This document shows positions 47,371 through 61,779 of a stretch of 64,000 nucleotides of DNA, in pieces (the stretch's first letter is position 1; each line of letters opens with the position of its first letter). The stretch lies in contig NC_007796.1 in assembly GCF_000013445.1 (NCBI RefSeq), positions 1,462,936 to 1,526,935 on the forward strand. The letters run 5' to 3'. Source of the stretch: Methanospirillum hungatei JF-1 (GTDB taxonomy: Archaea; Halobacteriota; Methanomicrobia; Methanomicrobiales; Methanospirillaceae). The notes beneath the pieces were generated by a model. It ran no database searches and had not been told where the DNA came from. It saw only the letters and a list, made by a program, of their open reading frames with translations. Both the position numbers and the translations under genes were made by a program.

Positions 47371-50300
47371 ATGAACACATTAACATCCCAAATGAAATCA
47401 GATCCGGACCATTCGGATCTCGCTGATGAAAAGATAAACCCAGAAACATACAGTATCGGTATTGATATCGGATACTCATCGATCAAAATCGGCCTGGTGA
47501 ACAGTTCTTTGCAACCAGTATATGCAGATTACATCCTTCATAAAGGAAAAATCAAAGAAACCCTGCAGAAAATACTTGCAACGCTTGCAGGGCAGTATGA
47601 TCCAACATCAATAACACATGGGGCGGTAACCGGAAGTGAATCAAAATGGATATCCAAAGATCAGACCATTCATCACGTCAATGATGTATCGGCACTCCTT
47701 GAAGGGAGCCTGTGCCTGGATGATTCGGTTCATTCAATCATTGATATCGGGGGACAGACCGCCAGGTATATTACCGGATTTACGAGCAGGGAAAAATCAT
47801 GCATCGAAATTTCTATGAACTCCAATTGTGCTGCAGGGACGGGTTCATTTCTTGAAGAACAGGTGTCACGGCTGAATCTGTCTATTGAGGATTATGCAGC
47901 CTATGCGGCTAAAAGTTCAAGCATTCCACGAATTGCCGGGAGATGCAGTGTATTTGCCAAAACCGACATCATCCATCATCAGCAGGAAGGTGTTCCAGTT
48001 GAGGATATTCTCCAGGGTCTTGCATATGCTCTTATCAGGAATTACCGGGGAGCAGTAATCAAAAAACTGCCCATTACAAGACCAGTATTCTTCGCTGGCG
48101 GAGTAGCACACAATGACGCTATTGTCAATGCCATATCAGACATCCTAGATCTCTCTGATGGAAAACTCATCGTTTCAGATTTGAGTGGAAATGCTGCAGC
48201 AATAGGAACGGCAATTATTGCTAAGCAGAATAATCTGACAATCTCACCTGATGAATTATCCTCGATTCTCACCCGCAACGAATGCAATTCAAACAATTCG
48301 GAACTCAGCCTGCCAGCTCTTGCCCGGTTCGGAAAGGAAGACTGCACAAACAAACATATCTGTGCTCCAATCTCTTCAGGAGATGAGATAACCGATTGTT
48401 TTCTAGGCATTGATATCGGTTCAACCAGTACAAACCTGGTTCTCATGAATGAAAACAAGGAGATTGTTGCATTCAGGTATCTAAGAACTCTGGGAGACCC
48501 ATTCCATGCAGTCAGTACCGGGCTTGCTGACCTTGGAAGAGAATTCAAAGACAAGGTACGGGTTATCGGAGTTGGAACAACCGGTTCAGGACGGTACATG
48601 ATTGCAAGGCTGTTCGGAGCTGATGTTGTGAAAGATGAGATCACCGCCCAGGCAAGAGCTGCAATCACGCTTGATCCCCTGGTAGATACCGTGTTTGAAA
48701 TCGGCGGTCAGGACTCCAAGTTTATCAGCCTGAGAAATGGTGTCGTCACTGACTTTCAGATGAATAAGATATGTGCTGCAGGTACCGGATCATTTATCGA
48801 AGAGCAGTCCAAAAAATTCGATATTCCCATTGATGATTTTGGAGATAAGGCACTTGCCAGTACAAAACCGGAGTATCTTGGTGAACGGTGCACCGTATTC
48901 ATCGAAACCAGTATTGCCGCCTGCCTTGCCAATGGAACTAGTACTGAAGATATCGTATCAGGCCTGTGCTATTCCATTGTGAAAAATTATCTGAACCGGG
49001 TGGTCGGACAGAAGAAGATCGGAGATCGGATATTCCTGCAGGGAGGTATCGCCTATAACCAGGGAGTGATCAACGCATTCCGTTCACTGACCGGGAAAGA
49101 GATCATTGTTCCTCCATTCTTTAGTGTGACCGGAGCCTATGGAGCGGCAATCCTGACCTGCGAAGAGATGGGATCACGGAAGACCTCATTCAAAGGATTT
49201 GACCATATCGCCTCATCCGGTGAGGGAGAGATAGAAAAAGTAGCGAATTCCGATTCAGGATCTGATTTTGAAGAGATGGTCACGGACCTTATCTTTGAAG
49301 GGTATGATGGAACACTGGATCCCAGTAAAAAGACCATCGGAATCCCACGGGCTCTCTTCACCTATGGCATGTATCCAATGTTTGACGCCTTTTTCCGAGA
49401 GCTGGGGTATAATGTCCTCCTGTCAGATCCGACAAGTGAAAAGACCATCTGGCTCGGACAGGATTATTCACTTGACGAGACCTGTTACCCGGTCAAACTG
49501 ATCAATGGTCATGTGGCAGAGCTGGTGGAGAAAAAGGTGGACTACATCTTTTTCCCAGACCTGTACACGGTTGTTCACCCAAACTCCCATACCCGCCAGG
49601 ATTTTGGCTGCCCGTACATGCAACTTGCATTCAAACTGGTAAACCGGGCAATGGAACTTGATACGAAAGGCATCAAACTGCTTGCTCCTACCATCGGTTT
49701 TAGTCTTGGTGAACAATTCATGAAAAACAGTTTTATGAATCTTGGAACGATGCTTGACCGGACAACGGAGGAAACAGGGAAAGCCCTTCAGAAAGGGATG
49801 CAGGCATTCCATGATTTTGAAACCCGGATTATGGAAAAGGGGAAACAAATCGTGCAGGGCCTTCAGGCTGATGAAAAGGCATTTGTCCTGATTTCAAAAA
49901 CCTACGGGGTAGCAGATCCTGTCTTAAACCTTGGTATCCCCGGAAAACTGAAAGAGATGGGATATAAAACCCTTGCATTCTATAACCTCCCGGAATGTGA
50001 TGTTTCGAGCGAACACCCAAACATGTTCTGGCCATTTGGTCAGCATATCCTCGAAGCGGCGCAGGTTGTCAGGCAACATCCAAACCTGTATGCAATCTTC
50101 CTGACCCATCATGGATGTGGTCCGGATACCGTATTCACCCACTATTTCAAGGAGATTATGGGAGATAAACCATATCTGAACATAGAAGTTGATGAACATT
50201 CTTCAGGAGTCGGTGTGATAACCAGACTTGAAGCATTCGTAAACAGTCTGAACCATATACCCTCACAGCCTGCAGAGGATATGAATTGTTACCCGGAACG

Positions 50301-51435
50301 TGTTCCTCACCCGAAAGCCGGGATAACAACCAACGGTCTTGCATTTTCCAGTTCCTGTGAGTATTACCTGCCTGATCTCTATCCATATTCCGGACTTTTT
50401 TGCGAACATTTCAGTAAAAAAGGAATCCGTGCTCACCCGTTTCCACCTACGAGTGAAAAGTCCATTGATGAAGGGAGAAAACACACCATAACAAATGAAT
50501 ACTTCTCAATGGCTGCACTTGTCGGTGATGTACTGAATATTCCGGACATTCGAAACAAAGGAGATATCCCAAAAGTTCTCTTCATTCCACAGAACGAGGG
50601 AGCAGAAGTTGACGGGCAGTATAACAGGTTTATACGCACGATTCTTGATGAAGAAGGGCTATCTCACGTCTGGGTTGAATCTCCGTTCATTGAAGATATC
50701 ATATACGAGGATGAGAGTTTTCTCACATCACTCTTCTGTCTCCTCATTGCAGGAGACTTAATTCTGGTGACCCCCGTGTCTGACCGGGCCAGGTACCTGA
50801 ACCAGATGAAAGGTATGATACAGAGAAATGAACTTGATATCCGTTCTCTGAAAAGAGTCGCCTGGGAGATTTCAATGATCCTGCAGTCAGCACCTCCGGA
50901 AAAAACCATCCTTGCCATAGGTGAGCCACTCATTCTCTACAATGATATGCTGAATAACCAGATCCTGAATGGATTAGAAGAGAACAACGTCCGGGTTATG
51001 TTTGCACCTTTGAGCGAATGCTTCTGGCAGACCTGGAAGGATTACATTCTCCAGTACGGGAACGACAGGACTGATGTCCTCTTAAAGAAACTTGCCATAC
51101 TCGAAGATTATATGAATCAAATCCATCAGGTACTTGGTGTATTCAGCCCATATGAAGAGAAAACAGAAGACCTTATCAGACTCGCAGATGCCACCACCGG
51201 GTACTATGCCGGTGGATTTGGAAGATACAGGGAGGCAAAAGTTCTTGGGTTACCGTCATCGGTCAAAGGCGTGATAACCGTTTCATCAATGTATGAAAAC
51301 ACCGGAATCCTGCTTAATACTCTTCATAAAGGATTTGAATCAGACCACCAGAAGCCGGTGCTAAACCTGACATTTGACGGAACACACAATGACCATGACA
51401 AAAGCAAGGTTGAATCATTTCTCTACTATCTGTAA
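47371..51435 (+). CDS. Fused double ASKHA activase with DUF2229-type reductase region
   Basis: 1,354 residues. Two BcrA/BcrD-HgdC-like ATPase modules in tandem: the first from residue 27 (IGIDIGYSSIKIG, CAAGTGSFLEEQ), the second from about 344 (LGIDIGSTSTNLVL, IGGQDSKF, CAAGTGSFIEEQ, RCTVFIETSI). In the activase family the CAAGTGS and RCxVF Cys residues bind a [4Fe-4S] cluster at the dimer interface. After residue 650 come the DUF2229-type region (IGIPRALFTYGMYPMF, DETCYPVKL, FGCPYM) and a further region with HHGCGPDT, like the dehydratase/reductase partner. Such fusions use ATP to push electrons to very low potential; the acceptor is unknown. DGC-type gene follows after 22 bases. Confidence 0.85.
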   Translation: MNTLTSQMKSDPDHSDLADEKINPETYSIGIDIGYSSIKIGLVNSSLQPVYADYILHKGKIKETLQKILATLAGQYDPTSITHGAVTGSESKWISKDQTIHHVNDVSALLEGSLCLDDSVHSIIDIGGQTARYITGFTSREKSCIEISMNSNCAAGTGSFLEEQVSRLNLSIEDYAAYAAKSSSIPRIAGRCSVFAKTDIIHHQQEGVPVEDILQGLAYALIRNYRGAVIKKLPITRPVFFAGGVAHNDAIVNAISDILDLSDGKLIVSDLSGNAAAIGTAIIAKQNNLTISPDELSSILTRNECNSNNSELSLPALARFGKEDCTNKHICAPISSGDEITDCFLGIDIGSTSTNLVLMNENKEIVAFRYLRTLGDPFHAVSTGLADLGREFKDKVRVIGVGTTGSGRYMIARLFGADVVKDEITAQARAAITLDPLVDTVFEIGGQDSKFISLRNGVVTDFQMNKICAAGTGSFIEEQSKKFDIPIDDFGDKALASTKPEYLGERCTVFIETSIAACLANGTSTEDIVSGLCYSIVKNYLNRVVGQKKIGDRIFLQGGIAYNQGVINAFRSLTGKEIIVPPFFSVTGAYGAAILTCEEMGSRKTSFKGFDHIASSGEGEIEKVANSDSGSDFEEMVTDLIFEGYDGTLDPSKKTIGIPRALFTYGMYPMFDAFFRELGYNVLLSDPTSEKTIWLGQDYSLDETCYPVKLINGHVAELVEKKVDYIFFPDLYTVVHPNSHTRQDFGCPYMQLAFKLVNRAMELDTKGIKLLAPTIGFSLGEQFMKNSFMNLGTMLDRTTEETGKALQKGMQAFHDFETRIMEKGKQIVQGLQADEKAFVLISKTYGVADPVLNLGIPGKLKEMGYKTLAFYNLPECDVSSEHPNMFWPFGQHILEAAQVVRQHPNLYAIFLTHHGCGPDTVFTHYFKEIMGDKPYLNIEVDEHSSGVGVITRLEAFVNSLNHIPSQPAEDMNCYPERVPHPKAGITTNGLAFSSSCEYYLPDLYPYSGLFCEHFSKKGIRAHPFPPTSEKSIDEGRKHTITNEYFSMAALVGDVLNIPDIRNKGDIPKVLFIPQNEGAEVDGQYNRFIRTILDEEGLSHVWVESPFIEDIIYEDESFLTSLFCLLIAGDLILVTPVSDRARYLNQMKGMIQRNELDIRSLKRVAWEISMILQSAPPEKTILAIGEPLILYNDMLNNQILNGLEENNVRVMFAPLSECFWQTWKDYILQYGNDRTDVLLKKLAILEDYMNQIHQVLGVFSPYEEKTEDLIRLADATTGYYAGGFGRYREAKVLGLPSSVKGVITVSSMYENTGILLNTLHKGFESDHQKPVLNLTFDGTHNDHDKSKVESFLYYL

Positions 51436-51457: not shown

Positions 51458-51877
51458 ATGAACACATCTACCAGTGATACGAAAAATAATGAATCGCACG
51501 GACATCCATCAAACGAACCGGGTTCAAAAACCGGTTCTGATCATATTATCATCCCCTGTTGTGGTCAGGCAAACACCGGACAGATATCCAATGAGGTTGC
51601 AATGGTCCTGTCAGATGAAGGATTCGGGATGTATTACTGTACTGCTCTTCTTGCAACGAAACCAGAGGTTATTATAAGCCGAATGCAGGGAACGGAGAAG
51701 ATCATCGCCATCGATGGATGCACTATAGCCTGTGCAAAGAAAATTGCATTGCAGGCAGGATTTAAGGTGAACCACCATGTTCTGGTTACTGACCTTGGGA
51801 TTGAAAAGAAAAAAGGGCGTAACTTTACTTCTGAACAGGTTGCATGCGTCATTGATGTTATCCGGAAGGGATGCTGA
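51458..51877 (+). CDS. DGC-domain cysteine protein, putative zinc-binding
   Basis: 139 residues. A polar N-terminal tail of 30 residues precedes a DGC-type domain named for its conserved Asp-Gly-Cys: IIPCCGQANTGQISNEVA near residue 31 and IAIDGCTIACAKKIA near 88, with a further Cys in VACVIDVIRKGC. The family is annotated as putative zinc binding; no reaction is known. It lies 22 bases after the large activase gene with GAGGT upstream, so both are one transcription unit. The Cys-rich motifs would suit a metal or sulfur carrier for the activase, which is inference. Confidence 0.82.
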   Translation: MNTSTSDTKNNESHGHPSNEPGSKTGSDHIIIPCCGQANTGQISNEVAMVLSDEGFGMYYCTALLATKPEVIISRMQGTEKIIAIDGCTIACAKKIALQAGFKVNHHVLVTDLGIEKKKGRNFTSEQVACVIDVIRKGC

Positions 51878-52086
51878 CCTTCAGGACATGACAATTCCCT
51901 CCTCTTGCAATCCAGATATTATATGATTTCACCTGCAGCATTCAGTTATTCTTTCGTTGGAATGCATATACTCCGAGAGTTACAATTATTGACACATGTA
52001 CAACAGACAGGATCTATAGTTAAATATTAACCGTAATAAAAACAACCGTTAGACATAATGAAAGGAAAACCCAACATGTGTTTATC

Positions 52087-52566
52087 ATGAAAAATATCTG
52101 GAAATTTGCTCCTGAGGATGGAAAAGAGAGAGGGCTACTCACCCTTCTCGTCCTTCATTTCCTGGAGAAAAAACCACAATCTGGATATGAACTGCTAAAG
52201 GAGATCGATGAGACAACCGATAGTACCTGGGTGCCAAATAAAGGGACTTTGTATCCTCTTCTGAAATCATTGGAGCAGGAGGGCTTGATACAAGTGAAAG
52301 AGGTAGGCAAACGATCAAAGATTACGTTTGAACTAACAGAAGATGGAAGACAGATGCTCTCCACTCTGAAAGGGAAAAAAGAAGAAGCAGAGACGAGGGT
52401 TACTTTCTTCAAAAAATTGCACCGGGAAGTATTTGGCGAAGAAAATTTCTCTTTCATCAATTTTATGATGGATGTCAGGTTTTACGTCGAAGATCTTCCT
52501 GAAGAGAAAAAACCGGCAGCAATTAAAATTTTACAGACAGCCTTTGACGAGATAAAAAATTTATAA
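52087..52566 (+). CDS. PadR-family transcriptional regulator
   Basis: About 159 residues. A winged helix with the PadR pattern: LLTLLVLHFLEKKPQSGYELLKEID, PNKGTLYPLLKSLEQEGLI, GKRSKITFELTEDGR. The C-terminal part is a helical dimerisation region. The ATG at 52087 is preferred; a GTG at 52078 would add three residues. It heads a run of four same-strand genes (TrmO-like, FmdE-like, methyltransferase; gaps of 50, 13 and 15 bases) and likely controls them. The signal is unknown. The AT-rich 52020-52060 region upstream carries two ACCGT-type elements that could be promoter parts. Confidence 0.88.
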   Translation: MKNIWKFAPEDGKERGLLTLLVLHFLEKKPQSGYELLKEIDETTDSTWVPNKGTLYPLLKSLEQEGLIQVKEVGKRSKITFELTEDGRQMLSTLKGKKEEAETRVTFFKKLHREVFGEENFSFINFMMDVRFYVEDLPEEKKPAAIKILQTAFDEIKNL

Positions 52567-52616
52567 CAAGGCACCACAGACCCATTTCTCATATTTCACA
52601 AAACACATAGGATACC

Positions 52617-53159
52617 ATGACAAAAAGCACCATTCAGGATACTACTATTTGTATTACACCCGTCGGAATCGTGAAAAATAATCTTCTTGCTCCACCTCTC
52701 ATAGCCGGAAAAGACGGCCTTGAGCATAACCAGGCATGTACTTCTGCCATGAAAGACATGACCGATACCAATACCCGTGTTTCAGAGATTATTCTCTCCG
52801 AAGAATTCTCAGAGCTTCTCGAGGGTATTGAAGAATATTCACATGTAATAATCCTGTACTGGGGACATGAGGTCCCAGTCTCCGGGAGGACAATGAAGAA
52901 AACCCACCCGGCTGGTATGACCAATTATCCAAAACAGGGAATTTATGCAACATACAGCCCTGCACGGCCTAACCCGGTATTGATGACAGTCGTTCAACTG
53001 GTGAAAAAAGAAAAAAACCGGCTCTATGTATCCGGCCTTGATGCCATCAATAACAGCCCGGTGCTTGATATCAAACCATATGTTCCCCTCTTATTTCCTC
53101 AGGAAGGAGTAATCATCCCTGAGTGGATGACAAAGATCATGACAGAATTTCATTCGTAA
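52617..53159 (+). CDS. TrmO/TsaA-like protein (diverged copy)
   Basis: 180 residues of the TsaA (YaeB/VirR-like) SAM-dependent methyltransferase family. It keeps ITPVGIVKN at the N-terminus, EEYSHVIILYW, SPARPNPVLMTVV and LDIKPY. The usual DGTPLLDIKPY motif is altered to NNSPVLDIKPY, and RPNPIG is altered to RPNPVL. Typical TrmO adds a methyl group to the threonylcarbamoyl adenosine of tRNA, but these changes and the company it keeps suggest another substrate. It is the second gene of the PadR operon. A second family member sits in the molybdate operon at 56.6 kb with the canonical motif. Confidence 0.85.
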   Translation: MTKSTIQDTTICITPVGIVKNNLLAPPLIAGKDGLEHNQACTSAMKDMTDTNTRVSEIILSEEFSELLEGIEEYSHVIILYWGHEVPVSGRTMKKTHPAGMTNYPKQGIYATYSPARPNPVLMTVVQLVKKEKNRLYVSGLDAINNSPVLDIKPYVPLLFPQEGVIIPEWMTKIMTEFHS

Positions 53160-53172
53160 AGGAGATCATACC

Positions 53173-53985
53173 ATGGAAAAATCTCAGGATGCAAAGAAAA
53201 AAACTGATAGTACTTCAGGTGTGCTGAGCAGAGAGATGATTGATGAACTCAAAAAAGATCCGAGAGCTCTCTTTAAAGAAGCGATTCGAAAGAATGATGC
53301 AGCCTCCTGCCTGGTAAAGACCGCTGAGATTCATGGGCATTATTGTCCGGGTAGTACTCTCGGTGTTATGGCAACGCTATATGGACTTAGTCTTCTGAAG
53401 AAAGAAACGGCCGATTCGGATGGAATCATGGAGAACCTTCTCGCCATCATTGAGGTGAATGCCTGTTTTGCAGATGGTGTGCAGGCGGTCTCCGGGTGTA
53501 CACTTGGAAACAACTCACTCATTTATCGCGATCTTGGAAAACATGCCGTAACTTTTGTATCCAGAAATGAAAAAGAAGGAGTCAGAATCCGTCTGCTTCC
53601 TGATTTCAAGACCTATATTCATAAAGAGGTGCCGGAATTTTACCCTCTCATGGACAAGGTGATCATGAAAAGGAAGGGAACACAGGAAGAAGAGAAATTA
53701 TTCAGGGAAAAAGCAACCGAAGCAGCATTTGCAATAATTACGTATCCATTTGAAAAACTCTTTGCTTTCGAGCGGGTTATACCAGTTATCCCTGAACGTG
53801 CACCGATAACCGGCACGATGGTATGCCCGGAATGTGGTGAAGAGGTCATGGAAACAAAAACGGGGAAACGTGGCCTGCTCCGGAATATGTGTTTCGCATG
53901 TGGAGGAAAATTCCAGGAAGTGAATGGGCAGGGAATCATTGAAAGAAACTTCCGGGACCATGGCCATCATACGGAGCCGGAATAA
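53173..53985 (+). CDS. FmdE-family protein with zinc ribbon
   Basis: 270 residues. The FmdE domain shows the paired motifs EIHGHYCPGSTLGVMA near residue 55 and VNACFADGVQAVSGCTLGNNSL near 95, which supply Cys/His metal ligands. Near 217 a zinc ribbon follows (CPECGEE and CFACGG). FmdE was first noted in the operon of formylmethanofuran dehydrogenase, a molybdenum/tungsten enzyme, but the family has many stand-alone members of unknown role. The gene lies 13 bases after the TrmO-like gene and 15 before a methyltransferase gene. Next to it, convergently, is a molybdate/tungstate transporter, so a role in Mo/W handling is plausible. Confidence 0.85.
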   Translation: MEKSQDAKKKTDSTSGVLSREMIDELKKDPRALFKEAIRKNDAASCLVKTAEIHGHYCPGSTLGVMATLYGLSLLKKETADSDGIMENLLAIIEVNACFADGVQAVSGCTLGNNSLIYRDLGKHAVTFVSRNEKEGVRIRLLPDFKTYIHKEVPEFYPLMDKVIMKRKGTQEEEKLFREKATEAAFAIITYPFEKLFAFERVIPVIPERAPITGTMVCPECGEEVMETKTGKRGLLRNMCFACGGKFQEVNGQGIIERNFRDHGHHTEPE

Positions 53986-54000
53986 GAGGAGAGTGATCCC

Positions 54001-54618
54001 ATGAATGAATCACATATTTGTAAAGGAGCTCTGCATATGACACAGCCCGGCCCAGGACACCGGAGAGGAAAAGGTCCAAGTAGTTTTTGGATGCAGGATC
54101 CGGATATCGTCTTCAGGGAATTAAACCTGAATGAAGGCGATACATTTCTTGATATCGGGTGTGGGACCGGAGATTATACAATCCGGGCAGCAACTGAAGT
54201 TGGCAGGAATGGAACCGTTTTTGCTACCGATATACAGGAAGGACTTGTTCATGAACTCATGAAAAAAGCGGAGGATTCAGGACTGGAAAATATCCAGGCA
54301 TTTGTAAATGATATTCAAAACCCATTGCCATTTGAGAATAATAGTATCGACATATGCTTCATCTCAACAGTTCTGCATAGTCTTGATCTGAATCAGACTG
54401 GACCATTGCTACTTCGGGAGATAAAGCGTGTTTTAAAAAAAGACGGAATTCTAGTGATAATTGAATGCAATAAAGAAAACCTGACCTTTGGCCCGCCTGT
54501 CCACATGCGGATATCTGCAGATGAAATAGAAAAAATCGTGTCGCCCTATGGGTTTGTCCAGATCTCCCATGCTGACCTTGGTTTTAATTATTTAGTTACG
54601 TTCATCATCCAAACCTGA
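54001..54618 (+). CDS. Class I SAM methyltransferase of PadR operon
   Basis: 205 residues. The SAM-binding core is complete: FLDIGCGTGDYTIRAA as motif I, VFATDIQEGLVHELMKKA as motif II, and SIDICFISTVLHSLD and GILVIIECNKENLTFGPP as later strands. It resembles ubiquinone/arsenite-type class I methyltransferases (COG2226 style). GAGAGTGA lies just before the ATG at 54001. It is the last gene of the PadR-TrmO-FmdE operon and is convergent with the molybdate transporter ATPase. The substrate is unknown. Confidence 0.87.
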   Translation: MNESHICKGALHMTQPGPGHRRGKGPSSFWMQDPDIVFRELNLNEGDTFLDIGCGTGDYTIRAATEVGRNGTVFATDIQEGLVHELMKKAEDSGLENIQAFVNDIQNPLPFENNSIDICFISTVLHSLDLNQTGPLLLREIKRVLKKDGILVIIECNKENLTFGPPVHMRISADEIEKIVSPYGFVQISHADLGFNYLVTFIIQT

Positions 54619-54783
54619 AATTCTTAAATTTTTTGGGGGTTCAGATATACCAATTATTCAGATTATCCCTTTTGGCTCTTCGACGCAATAAATGAGTTCG
54701 TCAAATTTTTTTTATCCGTAACTTAAGTTGAAACTGGTATCAAATAATCATCCAGTCATTTCAAAAAATATATTGGTTAAAAT

Positions 54784-55830
54784 TTAAAAAACATGAACTG
54801 CTGAAGCTTTAAATGTAAGATATACTTCTTCATCTTCGGTCAAATGCATTTCATCCCATCCTCTTCTGGTCATGACTGATACTATTGGTATCCCAACATC
54901 AATAGTTACTTTGATTACCATCCCGTTATTTTTAATATCAGTGATCCTGCCTTTGAAAGAATTTCTTGCACTGGAAACTATAGGATCCCGGGATAGAAGA
55001 ATATCCTCGGGACGTACTGTTGCATACACCTCTCTTTCTCCGATGCAGGTTGCTGAATAGATAGTATACCCATCAATCTTGATAGCGGAGATACCCTCCT
55101 GATGAGAACATTCCCCTTTAAAAATATTTTCCATACCGGTGAATGCAGCAATGAACTCTGATTCCGGTTTTCTGAACACTTCATCAGGATCTCCAATCTG
55201 AGATATCTCTCCCTTATTCATAATAGCAACCCGATCTGCCAGAGAAAAAACCTCCTCAAAATTATGAGTAATATGAATTACTGTAACATTGGTGATATCA
55301 TGAATTCTGCGAAGTTCAGTCCGGAGTTTGTCTCTGGTCTGACCATCAAGAGCACTCAGTGGTTCATCCAGCAGCAGAAGGTTCGGTTCCATAACCAGGG
55401 ACCGAGAAATTGCGGCTCTCTGTTGTTCTCCTCCACTCAGGGTTTCGGGTTTTCGATGAAGGAGATGATCAATGCTCAGCAGTCTGGCCATCTCAAGCGT
55501 CTTCTTTTTGATGAATTCAGGATTTTTTTTCCGGGTCTTTAAACCAAACCCGATGTTTTCCTCTACCGTCAGATGGGGAAAAAGCATGTAATCCTGGTAT
55601 ACCATGCAGATATTTCGGTCCTTGGGTGCTAAATTGGTAATATCCTTCCCATCCATGATAATTCGTCCTGAATCGGGAGGGTAAAATCCTGCAATTGTTT
55701 CAAGAAGAATGGTCTTTCCAGCCCCTGTCGGACCAATAATTACCAGGTATTCTCCGGGAGAAACATCAAGAGTCACGTTCCGGAGAACAAATTCACCCAT
55801 GTCTTTAGATAAATTCTCGGTATGTAACAT
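54784..55830 (-). CDS. modC: Molybdate/tungstate ABC transporter ATPase
   Basis: 348 residues. Walker A GPTGAGKT near residue 33, Q-loop MVYQDYMLFPH, signature LSGGEQQRA near 132, Walker B LLLLDEPLSALD near 152, His switch THNFEE. The C-terminal 110 residues form a TOBE-type domain (VYATVRPEDILLS, FKASAVHVF) which in ModC/WtpC binds oxyanion and inhibits transport. It is the last gene of a leftward operon: binding protein, TrmO-like, permease, this ATPase. I cannot tell molybdate from tungstate. Confidence 0.93.
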   Translation of the reverse strand: MLHTENLSKDMGEFVLRNVTLDVSPGEYLVIIGPTGAGKTILLETIAGFYPPDSGRIIMDGKDITNLAPKDRNICMVYQDYMLFPHLTVEENIGFGLKTRKKNPEFIKKKTLEMARLLSIDHLLHRKPETLSGGEQQRAAISRSLVMEPNLLLLDEPLSALDGQTRDKLRTELRRIHDITNVTVIHITHNFEEVFSLADRVAIMNKGEISQIGDPDEVFRKPESEFIAAFTGMENIFKGECSHQEGISAIKIDGYTIYSATCIGEREVYATVRPEDILLSRDPIVSSARNSFKGRITDIKNNGMVIKVTIDVGIPIVSVMTRRGWDEMHLTEDEEVYLTFKASAVHVF

Positions 55831-55839
55831 AGGAACCCC

Positions 55840-56634
55840 CTATAATCTTGATGCCCCACCATACCGCTCGAAAAGGTAAAGTGATATCACACAGATAATG
55901 ATGAGAATCGTAGCTGCTGAAATTGCCATATTCAGTTTCCCACAGGACATATTCAGGAATAATGCAATCGGAAGGGTTTCAGTCTTCCATTGGATTGCTC
56001 CGGCTATTAAAAGAGCAGCCCCAAACTCTCCAATTCCTTTTGCCCAGGTTATTACAGATGCAGCAAAAAAGCCGGAACCAGCCATAGGAAGGGTCACCCG
56101 CCAAACTGCCTGGGCATCAGTACACCCAAGGGTTTTTGCGACAAATTCGTACCTGGTGCTGATGGATTCAAACGTTGAACGCATAATCCTCAGCATATAG
56201 GGAAAATTCACAAAAAACTGGGCTGCAATAATCCCGAGCGGAGTAAATACAAAAACCAGGCCCATATCTGCAAGTGCATTTCCAAAACCCGTCGTCCCAA
56301 AGAATAAGAGCAGACCAAGACCTGCGACCAGAGGGGGAAGAGCAAGGGGCATGTCAAGAATTGCATTGACCGCATCTTTTCCAAAAAAATTGTACCGGGC
56401 AAGAGCATATGCAGCGGGTACCGCAATAAGAATACAGAGAAATGTTGAGATTATTGAGGTTCCAAGACTCATGACTATGGCAAACTGAATCTCAGGACTT
56501 GTTATAGAAGCATACAGAGCATCAGGAGAAGGTTTTGTCACAATGAGGAGCAGTAGAATAATTATAAACAGAGTAAGCAGGATACTGGTTCCAATCGTTG
56601 CAGATCTCAGCCAGGAATTTCTCATGTCACTCAT
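55840..56634 (-). CDS. modB: Molybdate/tungstate ABC transporter permease
   Basis: 264 residues with six transmembrane helices and the inner-membrane-component motif EYxxxxTLGCxxxxxxxxVTLP (here RYEFVAKTLGCTDAQAVW followed by RVTLP). Helices include LLTLFIIILLLLIVT near residue 20. The region DMPLALPPLVAGLGLLLFFG is typical of ModB/WtpB. Its start overlaps the TrmO-like gene by four bases and its stop is nine bases from modC, so the three genes are translationally linked. Confidence 0.93.
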   Translation of the reverse strand: MSDMRNSWLRSATIGTSILLTLFIIILLLLIVTKPSPDALYASITSPEIQFAIVMSLGTSIISTFLCILIAVPAAYALARYNFFGKDAVNAILDMPLALPPLVAGLGLLLFFGTTGFGNALADMGLVFVFTPLGIIAAQFFVNFPYMLRIMRSTFESISTRYEFVAKTLGCTDAQAVWRVTLPMAGSGFFAASVITWAKGIGEFGAALLIAGAIQWKTETLPIALFLNMSCGKLNMAISAATILIIICVISLYLFERYGGASRL

Positions 56635-57176
56635 TTTTTAACCCTTTCCCGATTCCTCAGTTCCTTTGGAGTACTGTTCCATTCGGCAATATCATCCATA
56701 TGCTGGTTATCCACCCAGCCACACTTTACCTCATCGCGATGGTCAAACTGCCTTACATATGGCTTGATATCAAGAAGTGGTGTTCCATCCAGTACATCAA
56801 CTCCGGAAACTTTCAAAATATTATCTTGTACTTCAAGGAGCTCCATAATCGACATACCCATCGGATTTGGCCGATTGAAATGACGTATGGCAAAAATTCC
56901 CCTTTCTTTTTCACCATCAAGGAAGGGTTTCTGTACCAGATTTTTTCCTGTGGCCCGGTGGAAATAATAGAATGCGTAAATATGAGAAAATGATTCGACA
57001 TCTGCCAGTCCTGCCTTAAATTCATCAAATACTTCTATGTATCCAACTGATGGATTAAAAATCCCCTGAATAGGAGTATTTTCATGCTCAGTGTGGTCAG
57101 AATGAATAATTCCGATGGGATGAAATATGATGTCAGTATCTTTCCATTTGACTCCGTATTCCTTCGATAAACTCAT
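56631..57176 (-). CDS. TrmO/TsaA-like protein in molybdate operon
   Basis: 181 residues. Family motifs are complete: FHPIGIIHSDHTEHENTPIQ at the N-terminus, HIYAFYYFHRA, HFNRPNPMGMSIMEL near residue 105 and DVLDGTPLLDIKPYV near 130. The canonical DGTP is kept, in contrast to the copy at 52.6 kb. The gene lies between the binding-protein gene (47 bases away) and the permease gene (four-base overlap), so it is an integral member of the transport operon. TrmO modifies tRNA t6A in bacteria, but a transport link suggests a different or additional role, possibly tied to Mo/W cofactors. Confidence 0.9.
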   Translation of the reverse strand: MSLSKEYGVKWKDTDIIFHPIGIIHSDHTEHENTPIQGIFNPSVGYIEVFDEFKAGLADVESFSHIYAFYYFHRATGKNLVQKPFLDGEKERGIFAIRHFNRPNPMGMSIMELLEVQDNILKVSGVDVLDGTPLLDIKPYVRQFDHRDEVKCGWVDNQHMDDIAEWNSTPKELRNRERVKK

Positions 57177-57223
57177 AATATGCCTCCAAAAAAAATAGGG
57201 AAAATAAGAGAGAAATTACGGAG

Positions 57224-58069
57224 TTAAGCATCCCCGTACTTGGCTAACGGATAGATCTCAAATTTATGTTTTGTGTAAATTTCTTTCCCTTCATCAGAGG
57301 CAACAAAATTCATAAATTTCTCAGCCTCTTCCTTGTTTTCTGAGAATGTCAGAGTTCCGATTGGAACAACATCTACTTTACCAATCTCTTTTGGTATCTC
57401 AACAAGTTCCATACTTTCCGGGTTGAAAAGTTCGGTCCAGATAAGTGCAGCGTCTGCCTGATTCATGGAGACATATACCAGCAGTTCATTGACTGTACCT
57501 GATTTTACGACAATATTCTTCTCTGTTTCATTCCAGAGTTTATTCTTCTCAAGCATCTTCTTTGTTGCTGCTCCAACCGCCGGACCGGATGGTTCACCAA
57601 TTGCTACCCTGACACCTGGCCGTACGAGATCCTGAACACCAGTAATATTGCCAGGGTTTCCTTTCGGGACTGCAATCGCTAACACATGATATACAATATC
57701 CTGAGATTTATCCACATATCCCTTATCCATGGCAGACTGAATGTACGAGCGTGCACCAGGCATGTACACATCTCCTTTTTGATATAATTCAATCTGGCTG
57801 AGCAACTGGGCAGATCCTCCATAGGTATATTCAATTTTTGTTCCTTCTTTCTCTTCATATACCTTGGCAATCTCTTCCATTGGTTCTTTCATTCCAGCCC
57901 CGCAATAGACAAGAAGTGTCTTGGCAGATGAGGAATTCTGTTCAACAGCCTGCTCCTTTACCGGTTCCTGTGCCAGGTTATCCGACTGATTGCTAGAAGT
58001 ACATCCACACACAAGTAATGTCGCCATTAAGACGAATAAAATACAAAAAATCGAAGGTATCGCCTTCAT
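57224..58069 (-). CDS. modA: Molybdate/tungstate binding lipoprotein
   Basis: 281 residues. The N-terminus (FCILFVLMATLLVCGC) ends in a lipobox-like LVCGC, so the mature protein is probably tethered through Cys. The mature domain has ModA landmarks: LVYCGAGMKEPMEEIAKVY, EYTYGGSAQLLSQI, VAIGEPSGPAVGAAT, VSMNQADAALIW. It presents oxyanion to the ModB/ModC components encoded downstream. It is the first gene of the leftward operon; a 390-base AT-rich region upstream holds the promoter and ends at the group II intron. Confidence 0.9.
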   Translation of the reverse strand: MKAIPSIFCILFVLMATLLVCGCTSSNQSDNLAQEPVKEQAVEQNSSSAKTLLVYCGAGMKEPMEEIAKVYEEKEGTKIEYTYGGSAQLLSQIELYQKGDVYMPGARSYIQSAMDKGYVDKSQDIVYHVLAIAVPKGNPGNITGVQDLVRPGVRVAIGEPSGPAVGAATKKMLEKNKLWNETEKNIVVKSGTVNELLVYVSMNQADAALIWTELFNPESMELVEIPKEIGKVDVVPIGTLTFSENKEEAEKFMNFVASDEGKEIYTKHKFEIYPLAKYGDA

Positions 58070-58543: not shown

Positions 58544-60016
58544 CTACCCGCTTTTATGGGCGCAATAGAGAAACATACGAATCGACTTTTGTGTTGAAAG
58601 GAATATTCCCGGTCTTTTATCAAAATAGACAGAATCTATAAATGGGTTTTTATCCAGTTTAAGGAATCTTCTGTATTGAATCTTCGTGTCCGAGAAGTTT
58701 GCAAGAGTTACACTCGCCGTTTTAAAAACAGACTTACGGGTCAAAGTAGGTTGCCAGTATTTCCTCGCTATCCACTTTTTCCCTTTGTTATTATGTCTGC
58801 GTTTCGCCCATGTCCAGAGCATATTCCTGAGTATCCAATCCAGTTTCTGGAAGGTTACGCTTGATGATACTGTTTTATGGTACATCGCCCATCCTCGGAT
58901 GATTGGATTTAACTTTTTAATCAGGTCTTCTTGTTTCCAAGCTTTTGCAGACTTAATGACCTCGCTCAGTTTATGAGTGATTGCAGCAATAGCTTTCTTT
59001 GAAGGTTTAATCAGGAGTTTACCCTTGAATTTTCGAAAATTCCATCCCAGAAAATCAAAACCATCATCGATATGAACAATTCTCGTTTTCTCCTCGGAGA
59101 GTTCAAGACCACGTTCTTTAAGAAAATCGATAATGACCAGTTTACACTGGGCTGCAGTCTCCTTTGATTCAGCCGTTACGAGGAAATCATCCGCAAACCG
59201 AATGAGATGCACCTTCTTTCCCGGAAAACGTTCCTTTAGAATTTGTTCCATACCGTCAAGAGCCATGTTAGCCAGAGTTGGGGAAATAATTCCGCCTTGG
59301 GGCGTTCCAGATTCATTACGGTAGAGTATTCCATCAAAAATGTATCCCGCTTTCAGGAATTGGTTAAGAACTCTTGTATCCATGGGGATGTTGGTTAATA
59401 ACCAGGAGTGAGAGAAATTATCAAAGCACCCCTTGATATCGCCTTCAAGAATCCATTGGGCAGAGTCTTTTCTGCTTAAACATTGAAATGCATATGCAGC
59501 TGCATCCTGTGCACTGCGATTCGTTCTGAATCCAAATGAGGTTCTGTCTGCTATGGTTTCTGCCCATGGGGTGAGAGCCATTGCAAACAGTGCCTGCATT
59601 GCACGGTCGTACATTGTGGGAATGGAGAGAGGACGCATTTTGCTCGATTGAGGTTTGGGGATGAAGGTTCGCCGGAGAGGTTTAGCCTGATATCCCTTGT
59701 CTGAAAGACTAAGAACTGCTCTCATCTTATCCTGAGGAGTACTCCATTTTTCTCCGTCCACTCCTGCACTTTTTCTTCCTTTGTTGCCAGCTACCCGGTG
59801 AACTGCTAACACTTTGGCATAATACGAATGAGTTAGCAGGTACTGGAGACGCTCAGCAAGCCGATAATTGCCATTCTTTACTGCTTTTGCGATACGTGTC
59901 TGGAGTCGCTTGACAAACGCCCTTGCTTTCTTCCATGGGAATTTTCGCCATTGTTTGGCAAGAGTTTTGTCCGAGACGTCCTCGCTGTGTTGCGTAATTG
60001 AACTTATCTCGTTCAT
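58544..60016 (-). CDS. ltrA: Group II intron reverse transcriptase/maturase
   Basis: About 490 residues from the ATG at 60016; upstream codons in frame belong to intron RNA domains. The N-terminal RT0-type region ends with AGVDGEKWSTPQDKM near residue 85. Next come the fingers-palm motifs RPLSIPTMYDR, GFRTNRSAQDA, ILEGDIKGCFDNF, GTPQGGIISP and the catalytic IRFADDFLV near residue 265. The maturase (X) domain is seen as LNPIIRGWAMYHK and MLWTWAKRRH. I see no HNH endonuclease motif at the C-terminus, so target entry may depend on single-stranded DNA or RNA. The reading frame is intact, so the intron could be active. Confidence 0.92.
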   Translation of the reverse strand: MNEISSITQHSEDVSDKTLAKQWRKFPWKKARAFVKRLQTRIAKAVKNGNYRLAERLQYLLTHSYYAKVLAVHRVAGNKGRKSAGVDGEKWSTPQDKMRAVLSLSDKGYQAKPLRRTFIPKPQSSKMRPLSIPTMYDRAMQALFAMALTPWAETIADRTSFGFRTNRSAQDAAAYAFQCLSRKDSAQWILEGDIKGCFDNFSHSWLLTNIPMDTRVLNQFLKAGYIFDGILYRNESGTPQGGIISPTLANMALDGMEQILKERFPGKKVHLIRFADDFLVTAESKETAAQCKLVIIDFLKERGLELSEEKTRIVHIDDGFDFLGWNFRKFKGKLLIKPSKKAIAAITHKLSEVIKSAKAWKQEDLIKKLNPIIRGWAMYHKTVSSSVTFQKLDWILRNMLWTWAKRRHNNKGKKWIARKYWQPTLTRKSVFKTASVTLANFSDTKIQYRRFLKLDKNPFIDSVYFDKRPGIFLSTQKSIRMFLYCAHKSG

Positions 60017-60179
60017 TATAATCCATCCTGCTCGCCGTGAAAGAACCAGCTGCACGTCAGCACCCTTTCGGGTCAGGGCAAAGTCTGAACCCTTATCCAC
60101 AACCATTACAGCCGGGCATTCGCTTTTTGCAGCATCCTACTCCCACTACGCATATAGTCCTCCTCACGAAGTTCCTACC

Positions 60180-60204
60180 TAAAAAAATTTTTTTTTTTTT
60201 TTAG
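60180..60204. repeat. A7/T-rich homopolymer tract in intron
   Basis: A run of A residues followed by about 16 T residues on the plus strand, near the middle of the intron's 5' ribozyme part. It could form a simple hairpin loop or reflect slippage; no other role is visible. Confidence 0.6.
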
Positions 60205-60759
60205 GAGCGTATTGGGGTTTCCAAGTTCAATAAACCAGATAATTGTGGTATTTTAGGACTCGCCCATAGACCGGAACCAGCTACGTCCATTCGTACCAGC
60301 ATCACTCAAACTACTGATACCGTGATTCTCCCTCAATGGGGACAGGGGCAAATCTCTTTCCTCCTGCTATATTTAACGATCCTGCAGCGATTCAACGTTT
60401 GTTTGTCCATGATACCTTTCCCTAGCAGTATATCCCAATGAGACTATGGGAGTAACCACTTTGTTCCTGCAGCTTCGCACCCATTTATTGCTAAACACGC
60501 ACGTGCAGGTAGGGACACCCAGAATGGATTGGGGGGCTTTTTTTACCGAATTAAACCGGAATAGCAATCTGATTTACCGCTTCTTGTCGCACTGAGATCC
60601 AATAATTCTGACACCATATAGATTTTCATAGGGCTTTTAATGAATGAACAGGTATTCTGGATGCTTTTTCCGGCTCCAGATCCATGAAGAGATTTGGATG
60701 TGCCCTTTTCGTTCGGTAGGACACATATGCAATCGGAGTTTTTTACAAATAATTACGAC

Positions 60760-61779
60760 TCATCGTTTTTTCCCGATGGTGCACTCAACTTCTCCAACCG
60801 GAGTCTGAACCGGCCTGCTCCTGACTTTATAAAACCCAGCATCGAGCATGGCATTTGCAATAAAATCTTCATGAATAGCCATATTCTGTCCCATTAGATC
60901 AGGAAGCAGCATCGAAATAACCATCTCCTCCGGTTTGGTACCATTCCGTATCGTTCCATCTGATATAGTTACAAACACTCCTCCCGGTCTTAATGCCTCA
61001 TAGATCTTTTTCATGAGAGAATCAAAAGAGCCAAGGGCATAATTCAGGGTCATTGAAGCAAGGATGAGATCATACTCTTCTCCTATCGAATCATTCAGGT
61101 AATCTCCGGACATGACCGTAACTCTGTCAGACACACCATATTCAGCAGCACATCGCCTCGCAACCTCTGCAACCGGGGGTTGATCAAATAGGACTCCATT
61201 CATGGTGGGATGATCAAGGATCAGGGCAATACCAAGAAGACCCGGACCACATCCCAGATCAAGCATTCGGGAAAAGCCATTATATTCCGGAAGTGAAGAT
61301 ATCAGTTTTACTACTATCTGAGCCATTCCCGACCGCTGATAATTGATAGAACCCCGGGTCTGCATCTCCTGAAACTCCCTCGAACTCATAATAATCTCAT
61401 TCGCACCACTATCAGGTCCATCACGAACGAGTCTTGAGATCTTTTCTGGATGAATTGAATACCAGGGATCACTTGCACAAAGATAATCACCCAGATAGGT
61501 GTCATTTCCCTTTACCAGAAAATCATGAGCAATAGGAGAATTGTAGTAACAATCACCATCTTTTTGGATCACATCAAACGCAGCAAGTGCATTCAGAAGA
61601 TGAATGGTGTTTTGTTTGTGAAGATGATGTGTTTGCGCAATATCTTCTGCAGAGTGAGTCTTTTCCAGCAGGGTAAAAAGATCAAGTTCAATTGCAGCAA
61701 GGAGTATATTTGCCTCTGATTTCTTCAGGAGGAGATCCTGAAGAGGTTTGAAACTTCGTTGAATATCAGGAATATCCAT
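60760..61779 (-). CDS. O-methyltransferase-type SAM methyltransferase (copy 2)
   Basis: 339 residues, a clear paralogue of the protein at 37.1 kb. Winged-helix dimerisation domain (LLAAIELDLFTLLEK, IAQTHHLHKQNTIHLLNAL) and SAM core with MLDLGCGPGLLGIALIL, HPTMNGVLFDQPPV and EYDLILASMTLNYA. It ends with the conserved strand GEVECTIGKKR. It lies three bases after the transporter gene upstream and is surely in one operon with it. The N-terminal domain is the dimerisation part; the substrate is unknown. Its presence with a His-rich transporter repeats the transporter-plus-methyltransferase theme of the window. Confidence 0.85.
   Translation of the reverse strand: MDIPDIQRSFKPLQDLLLKKSEANILLAAIELDLFTLLEKTHSAEDIAQTHHLHKQNTIHLLNALAAFDVIQKDGDCYYNSPIAHDFLVKGNDTYLGDYLCASDPWYSIHPEKISRLVRDGPDSGANEIIMSSREFQEMQTRGSINYQRSGMAQIVVKLISSLPEYNGFSRMLDLGCGPGLLGIALILDHPTMNGVLFDQPPVAEVARRCAAEYGVSDRVTVMSGDYLNDSIGEEYDLILASMTLNYALGSFDSLMKKIYEALRPGGVFVTISDGTIRNGTKPEEMVISMLLPDLMGQNMAIHEDFIANAMLDAGFYKVRSRPVQTPVGEVECTIGKKR

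Follow-up and report, generated by a model that had tools for sequence, protein, structure and literature searches.

Bacterial TrmO (YaeB) methylates tRNA at N6-threonylcarbamoyladenosine 37 (t6A37), and in Escherichia coli this requires a C-terminal domain with a DPRxxY motif (PMC4132733). Its S-adenosylmethionine (SAM) ligands are Q22, R82, D111 and K122 (A. fulgidus numbering), E. coli mutants of which lose activity wholly or strongly, and the structures of the homologues AF0241 and RPA0152 carried endogenous SAM (PMC4132733). In archaea, Kimura et al. (2014) described TrmOs that lack the C-terminal domain and occur as several paralogues. The methylated product, m6t6A, was undetected in archaeal tRNA as of 2014, including that of one archaeon that bears TrmO, and the same authors proposed another RNA or a protein as the archaeal target (PMC4132733). 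A second family of relevance here is FmdE, for which a fusion to UPF0066 and genes near metal transporters have already been published (PMC2954224), as have fusions to a ‘tRNA methyltransferase’ (PMC11237513). Here we analyse a stretch of 64,000 nucleotides from the archaeon Methanospirillum hungatei JF-1 (NC_007796.1, positions 1,462,936 to 1,526,935; the window), in which a plus-strand operon, PadR–TrmO–FmdE–methyltransferase, converges on a minus-strand operon, modA–TrmO–modB–modC. The link between TrmO and the mod genes is real and conserved.

The mod-linked protein is like TrmO in its TrmO_N domain (PF01980) and in its intact Q22, R82, D111 and K122, and its nearest solved homologue is AF0241 (2nv4), an archaeal single-domain protein. 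Unlike TrmO as described in bacteria, it lies inside a metal-import operon and coexists with two paralogues in the same genome, which is one contig of 3,544,738 bp with three TrmO_N proteins. It also lacks TrmO_C (PF18389), the home of the DPRxxY motif, which a profile search finds in E. coli TrmO and in neither window copy. The compact minus-strand operon (54784-58069) resembles ModABC and WtpABC importers in that its ModA-like substrate-binding protein (SBP), its permease and its WtpC-type ATPase each exceed one NCBIfam cut-off (TIGR01256, TIGR01581 and NF040840, respectively). It departs from these importers in holding a TrmO gene, in an SBP that has neither of two expected ligand residues (see below) and in a NifC-like permease that misses the ModB model TIGR02141 (165.5 compared with a cut-off of 182.6). 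The genes, strands and coordinates that an earlier, sequence-only reading of this DNA had assigned to both operons are all borne out (Table 1), as is its four-base overlap, since the modB start and the TrmO stop share positions 56631-56634 (4 bp). That reading had called a TrmO copy at this place unexpected for what is normally a tRNA enzyme, a premise that the evidence does not bear out in this form: the tRNA role of single-domain archaeal TrmO has been doubted since 2014, and multi-copy genomes are common, with up to 7 paralogues per genome.

To place the locus, we collected all TrmO_N matches with their flanks from 70 genomes drawn evenly across the phylum, added 10 genomes of the order, and built a tree of 146 archaeal TrmO_N domains and reference TrmO sequences with ultrafast bootstrap (UFBoot) support. 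Many genera of the order have the arrangement modA–TrmO–modB–modC at loci retrieved by TrmO sequence alone. The phylogeny with operon context places the mod-linked copy of the window in a clade of 45 members (UFBoot 99). Of these 45 TrmOs, 30 have a same-strand ModA or ModB gene no more than 1.2 kb away, as do 4 of the 101 others; three of the latter are additional TrmOs that precede modA in mod operons already holding a clade member. At least 12 adjacencies between TrmO and a TIGR01581 permease are seen in the 70-genome set, where about 0.08 would be expected, and chance adjacency of TrmO and mod genes is thus rejected by two orders of magnitude. The place of TrmO in the operon is flexible while its mod company is retained: the gene can precede modA, separate it from modB or follow modC (L199).

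The link also recurs in further families of the same phylum, and one bacterium has it too. In the betaproteobacterium Comamonas antarctica, a plasmid carries tsaA immediately 5′ of modA-modB-ATPase; its TrmO falls outside the archaeal mod clade, and its placement near the archaeal lineage found before modA is weak (support 0.25). The association therefore does not belong to this genome alone, which disposes of the objection that the sequence-only reading had raised against its own proposal. A search of the open-access literature, with subscription journals outside its range, returned no report of a TrmO–mod association and one unrelated review only.

Independent markers of molybdenum (Mo) or tungsten (W) handling also accompany the mod clade. 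Neighbouring genes were identified as MFS_MOT1 molybdate transporters and molybdenum storage protein homologues (E=3e-56 for the best match). In the mod clade, 17 of the 45 TrmOs have at least one of these two within 6 kb, whereas all 101 other TrmOs lack them there (P=1.7e-10). Any Mo/W gene lies within that distance of 36 of the 45 compared with 18 of the 101 (P=8.5e-13); both P values overstate the strength of the association because related sequences are counted as independent. Where adjacent modA and modB are absent (L048, L050 and L051), TrmO still stands beside MOT1, storage protein and TupA genes. In relatives, MOT1, TupA, WtpA and a homologue of the molybdenum storage protein are among the genes that flank the operon, a context that supports the predicted transport of molybdate or tungstate. 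As a separate observation, the storage protein homologues of Methanomicrobiales, which have an AA_kinase fold, cluster with MOT1 and TrmO-mod genes (L042, L043, L045, L048, L050, L051, L136, L205, L208 and L210), and an unclassified winged-helix-like gene joins the clusters in this same set of loci.

The two window TrmOs lie apart in the tree, in different clades, and their functions probably differ. All four SAM ligands are kept throughout the mod clade with the sole exception of L209 (Q22 to His), and near relatives of the mod copy share a nearly invariant FDHRDEV..GWVD stretch. By contrast, two of the four ligands are gone from the FmdE-linked copy, which has K at the position of Q22 and Y at that of R82; its clade of ten members (support 100) has lost Q22 and carries Cys, Phe or Tyr at R82. 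The earlier remark that this copy has NNSP in place of DGTP is correct as a difference (DG to NN), but it is not the key divergence, the loss of Q22 and R82 being more telling. On the TIGR00104 equivalog model (cut-off 93.25) the mod copy scores 128 and the FmdE-linked copy 94.5, barely over. Net charge and isoelectric point (pI) fail to separate the archaeal clades from bacterial TrmO N-domains, and AlphaFold2 models were too poor for use (mean predicted local distance difference test score, pLDDT, of 56 for mod-TrmO; pLDDT 50 for the SBP).

We propose that the mod-linked TrmO is a class VIII (beta-barrel) SAM-dependent methyltransferase recruited to Mo/W acquisition, which would be co-translated with the Mod/Wtp-type ATP-binding cassette (ABC) importer. 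Rather than tRNA t6A37, it would most likely methylate a cofactor or small molecule associated with the metal being imported; candidates are Mo/W ligands, Mo/W chelates and pterin or nucleotide intermediates of the Mo/W cofactor. The FmdE-linked TrmO would more likely be a diverged partner with an altered ligand or a binding or regulatory role, and methylation in the PadR-controlled FmdE module would fall to the separate class I enzyme. Judged from sequence and gene context, we put the probability of this reading at roughly 0.5. Beyond the observed gene order, conservation, clade structure, ligand retention or loss and missing C-terminal domain, we infer that the mod TrmO is enzymatically active, acts on a small molecule and is functionally tied to metal import. 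The idea that TrmO copies act on Mo/W-related small molecules was already part of the sequence-only reading and is still a prediction. A tRNA role is less likely: archaea have yielded no m6t6A, and those who discovered TrmO already suspected that its archaeal homologues have other targets.

If this proposal is correct, a class of SAM methyltransferases that is annotated database-wide as tRNA enzymes works in metal acquisition. Methanogens, which rely on Mo/W enzymes for their carbon metabolism, would then use an unrecognised methylated molecule when they take up Mo/W or assemble its cofactor. The Mo/W context also makes the question of archaeal TrmO paralogue function, posed by Kimura et al., experimentally approachable.

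FmdE shares in the TrmO and Mo/W theme, as had been suggested. TrmO_N–FmdE fusions occur in other archaeal clades (L159, L195, L160 and L162), where TrmO_N is also found among FmdE, MoeA, FdhD and formate dehydrogenase genes (FmdE–TrmO–MoeA–FdhD loci). The window FmdE (PF02663) adjoins a TrmO_N protein as in the published FmdE–UPF0066 fusions; unlike them, it is encoded by a separate gene, in company with a PadR regulator, a class I methyltransferase and a TrmO of the divergent clade. The window order is repeated in L218 as activase, short gene, PadR, TrmO, FmdE and methyltransferase, followed by FecBCD importer genes. As a side observation, two loci (L104/L105) encode a DJ-1/PfpI domain fused to TrmO_N, adjoining an ABC ATPase and two MoeA genes.

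Transporters other than Mod importers are also frequent near TrmO_N. A same-strand ABC ATPase gene lies within 3 kb of TrmO_N in 24 of 101 cases, where about 5 are expected. Archaeal TrmOs stand by FecBCD-type importers with FmdE (L113, L141, L203, L213 and L218) and, in L164, by an Opp/Nik-type importer with a class I methyltransferase. On the plasmids that made up our bacterial survey, TrmO_N genes adjoin iron ABC operons in Rhizobium and Paracoccus and SBP–permease–permease–ATPase operons in Phaeobacter and Tritonibacter; some plasmid TrmOs have no metal context. Genes of the DUF364 ‘heavy-metal chelation’ family are among the TrmO_N neighbours. A broader notion can tentatively be entertained, namely that single-domain TrmO_N proteins of archaea and bacteria are general metal-acquisition enzymes whose products, methylated metal-binding chelators or cofactor precursors, serve importers of the Mod, Fec and Opp/Nik types, such that the label ‘tRNA methyltransferase’ would mostly be wrong. 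The transporter and DUF364 contexts above, the Comamonas modABC locus and a lyase–TrmO_N fusion on a Salmonella plasmid speak for it; we regard it as possible, though on balance doubtful.

Further domain combinations were also seen. The Salmonella plasmid (L261:2148-3947) encodes a fusion of an aspartase/fumarase-superfamily lyase with TrmO_N; a MoaD/ThiS-family gene and an ABC SBP gene come next, in what looks like a small-molecule biosynthesis operon. RNase H–TrmO_N fusions are encoded at L129:1887-2756, L132:5500-6423 and L178:6042-6893, the first two adjoining an Mrp/NBP35-type ATPase. A TrmO_N subclade, family f9 (L142, L146, L148, L149 and L166), comprises proteins of 280-330 amino acids (aa), and its scanned member, L142, carries a dCTP-deaminase-like domain C-terminal to TrmO_N.

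A number of observations weigh against a small-molecule methyltransferase of Mo/W acquisition. Both window copies pass the NCBI TrmO equivalog cut-off, the fusions to RNase H and dCTP-deaminase in other clades would suit an RNA or nucleotide substrate, and the sequence gives no pointer to what the mod TrmO methylates. For nine of the 45 mod-clade TrmOs, the fetched sequence contains no Mo gene, in some cases owing to contig ends. The SBP raises a further difficulty. We take Ser12 and Tyr170 (E. coli numbering) to be the canonical oxyanion ligands of ModA. The linked SBP passes TIGR01256 (modA) though it lacks both: at the equivalent positions, CGAGMKEPM replaces AASL, and W replaces Y (ADAALIW for ..VY). 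The operon cargo may thus differ from molybdate or tungstate, and a chelate, a thio-oxyanion or another anion would be possible on these grounds.

The term ‘molybdate operon’, used in the sequence-only reading, therefore holds in that SBP, permease and ATPase pass their family cut-offs, but it needs a caveat because the linked, ‘GAG-type’ SBP is a distinct subfamily without the canonical ModA ligands. The solved molybdate-binding protein 9wgd departs at the same two positions, and Mo/W cargo is therefore still possible for the GAG-type SBP. TrmO is present with about 12 of 18 GAG-type SBPs and with 0 or 1 of 9-10 AAS-type SBPs (P 0.001-0.006), as tallied by hand for the 33 above-cut-off TIGR01581 permeases of the 70 genomes with five unclassified or unfetched loci omitted.

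Other explanations of the mod-linked gene can be weighed against the same evidence. The protein could still be a methyltransferase of tRNA (m6t6A37) or another RNA, with its expression tied to Mo/W status such that codon-specific translation is tuned under scarcity. The equivalog score, the RNase H–TrmO fusions in related clades and the tRNA methylation activity of bacterial TrmO (PMC4132733) all fit this model. We nevertheless consider it unlikely, given that the mod copy lacks the C-terminal domain of E. coli TrmO, that m6t6A is not found in archaeal tRNA even with TrmO present (PMC4132733) and that several paralogues per genome are linked to differing transporter types; the acidity of the proteins (median pI 5.7) is a weak point, as bacterial TrmO N-domains are similar. 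A target of another kind, a protein of the Mo/W pathway such as the importer, MoeA, FmdE or a Mo/W enzyme, is in keeping with the TrmO–FmdE fusions, the MoeA and FdhD neighbours and the proposal of another RNA or a protein by Kimura et al. (PMC4132733). However, the TrmO contexts do not share any one partner protein, Mod-, Fec- and Opp/Nik-type importers all occurring among them, and a protein substrate seems to us quite improbable.

Instead of being an enzyme, the mod TrmO might serve the ABC importer as a sensor or regulatory subunit that binds SAM and ties metal import to the SAM level. Its overlap of 4 bp with the permease gene in one operon would accord with such a role, as would the endogenous SAM in AF0241 and RPA0152 (PMC4132733) and the divergent FmdE-linked clade, in which the fold has outlasted partial loss of the SAM site. 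Yet the entire SAM pocket of the mod copy is conserved as in an enzyme, and the location of its gene in the operon varies, so we also hold this model at low odds, though together with protein methylation it ranks among the alternatives to be taken seriously. Simple passive adjacency, in which common, mobile TrmO paralogues settled by accident in mod operons and were then inherited, would draw on the abundance of the paralogues and the presence of some on plasmids. It is very unlikely: the link spans two domains of life and is not confined to a single TrmO lineage, the overlaps within operons are kept while TrmO shifts its place, the gene persists without adjacent mod genes, and observed and expected adjacencies are far apart. 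A SAM methyltransferase serving Mo/W acquisition is thus the reading that we prefer for the mod-linked protein.

Table 1 Features of the two convergent operons and their surroundings in the window
Feature	Coordinates	Strand	Details
Large dehydratase-activase-like protein	47371-51435	+	1354 aa; upstream of the PadR–TrmO–FmdE–methyltransferase operon
DGC-domain protein	51458-51877	+	Between the activase-like gene and PadR
PadR-family regulator	52087-52566	+	Alternative GTG start possible at 52078
FmdE-linked TrmO_N protein	52617-53159	+	180 aa; PF01980 94.6 bits; divergent clade
FmdE	53173-53985	+	PF02663 126 bits, cut-off 22.9; HGHxC metal motif present as IHGHYCPG; C-terminal CPEC...CFAC zinc-finger motif
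Class I SAM methyltransferase	54001-54618	+	UbiE/ArsM-like; under every specific cut-off
WtpC/ModC-type ATPase	54784-55830	−	TOBE domain; WtpC NF040840 464, cut-off 440
NifC-like/ModB-type permease	55840-56634	−	TIGR01581 235.5, cut-off 210.3
Mod-linked single-domain TrmO_N protein	56631-57176	−	181 aa; PF01980 129.7 bits; SAM ligands Q/R/D/K intact
ModA-like SBP, GAG-type	57224-58069	−	TIGR01256 105.9 bits, cut-off 62.5
O-methyltransferase	60760-61779	−	Upstream of modA

A group II intron on the minus strand (58544-60535) separates modA from the O-methyltransferase gene. It comprises a reverse transcriptase/maturase open reading frame (58544-60106) and an Rfam D1D4-7 match (60388-60535), and it alone was matched in an Rfam scan of 51-61 kb, which returned no Mo-cofactor riboswitch and no other regulatory RNA. 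In M. stamsii (L035), a related methyltransferase gene directly precedes modA. The third TrmO_N protein of the genome, encoded at about 2.18 Mb (G000:C1:2178454-2178786; L002/L151), has E in place of the SAM ligand D111, and its gene converges on genes for ThiE-like and thiazole-synthase-like proteins.

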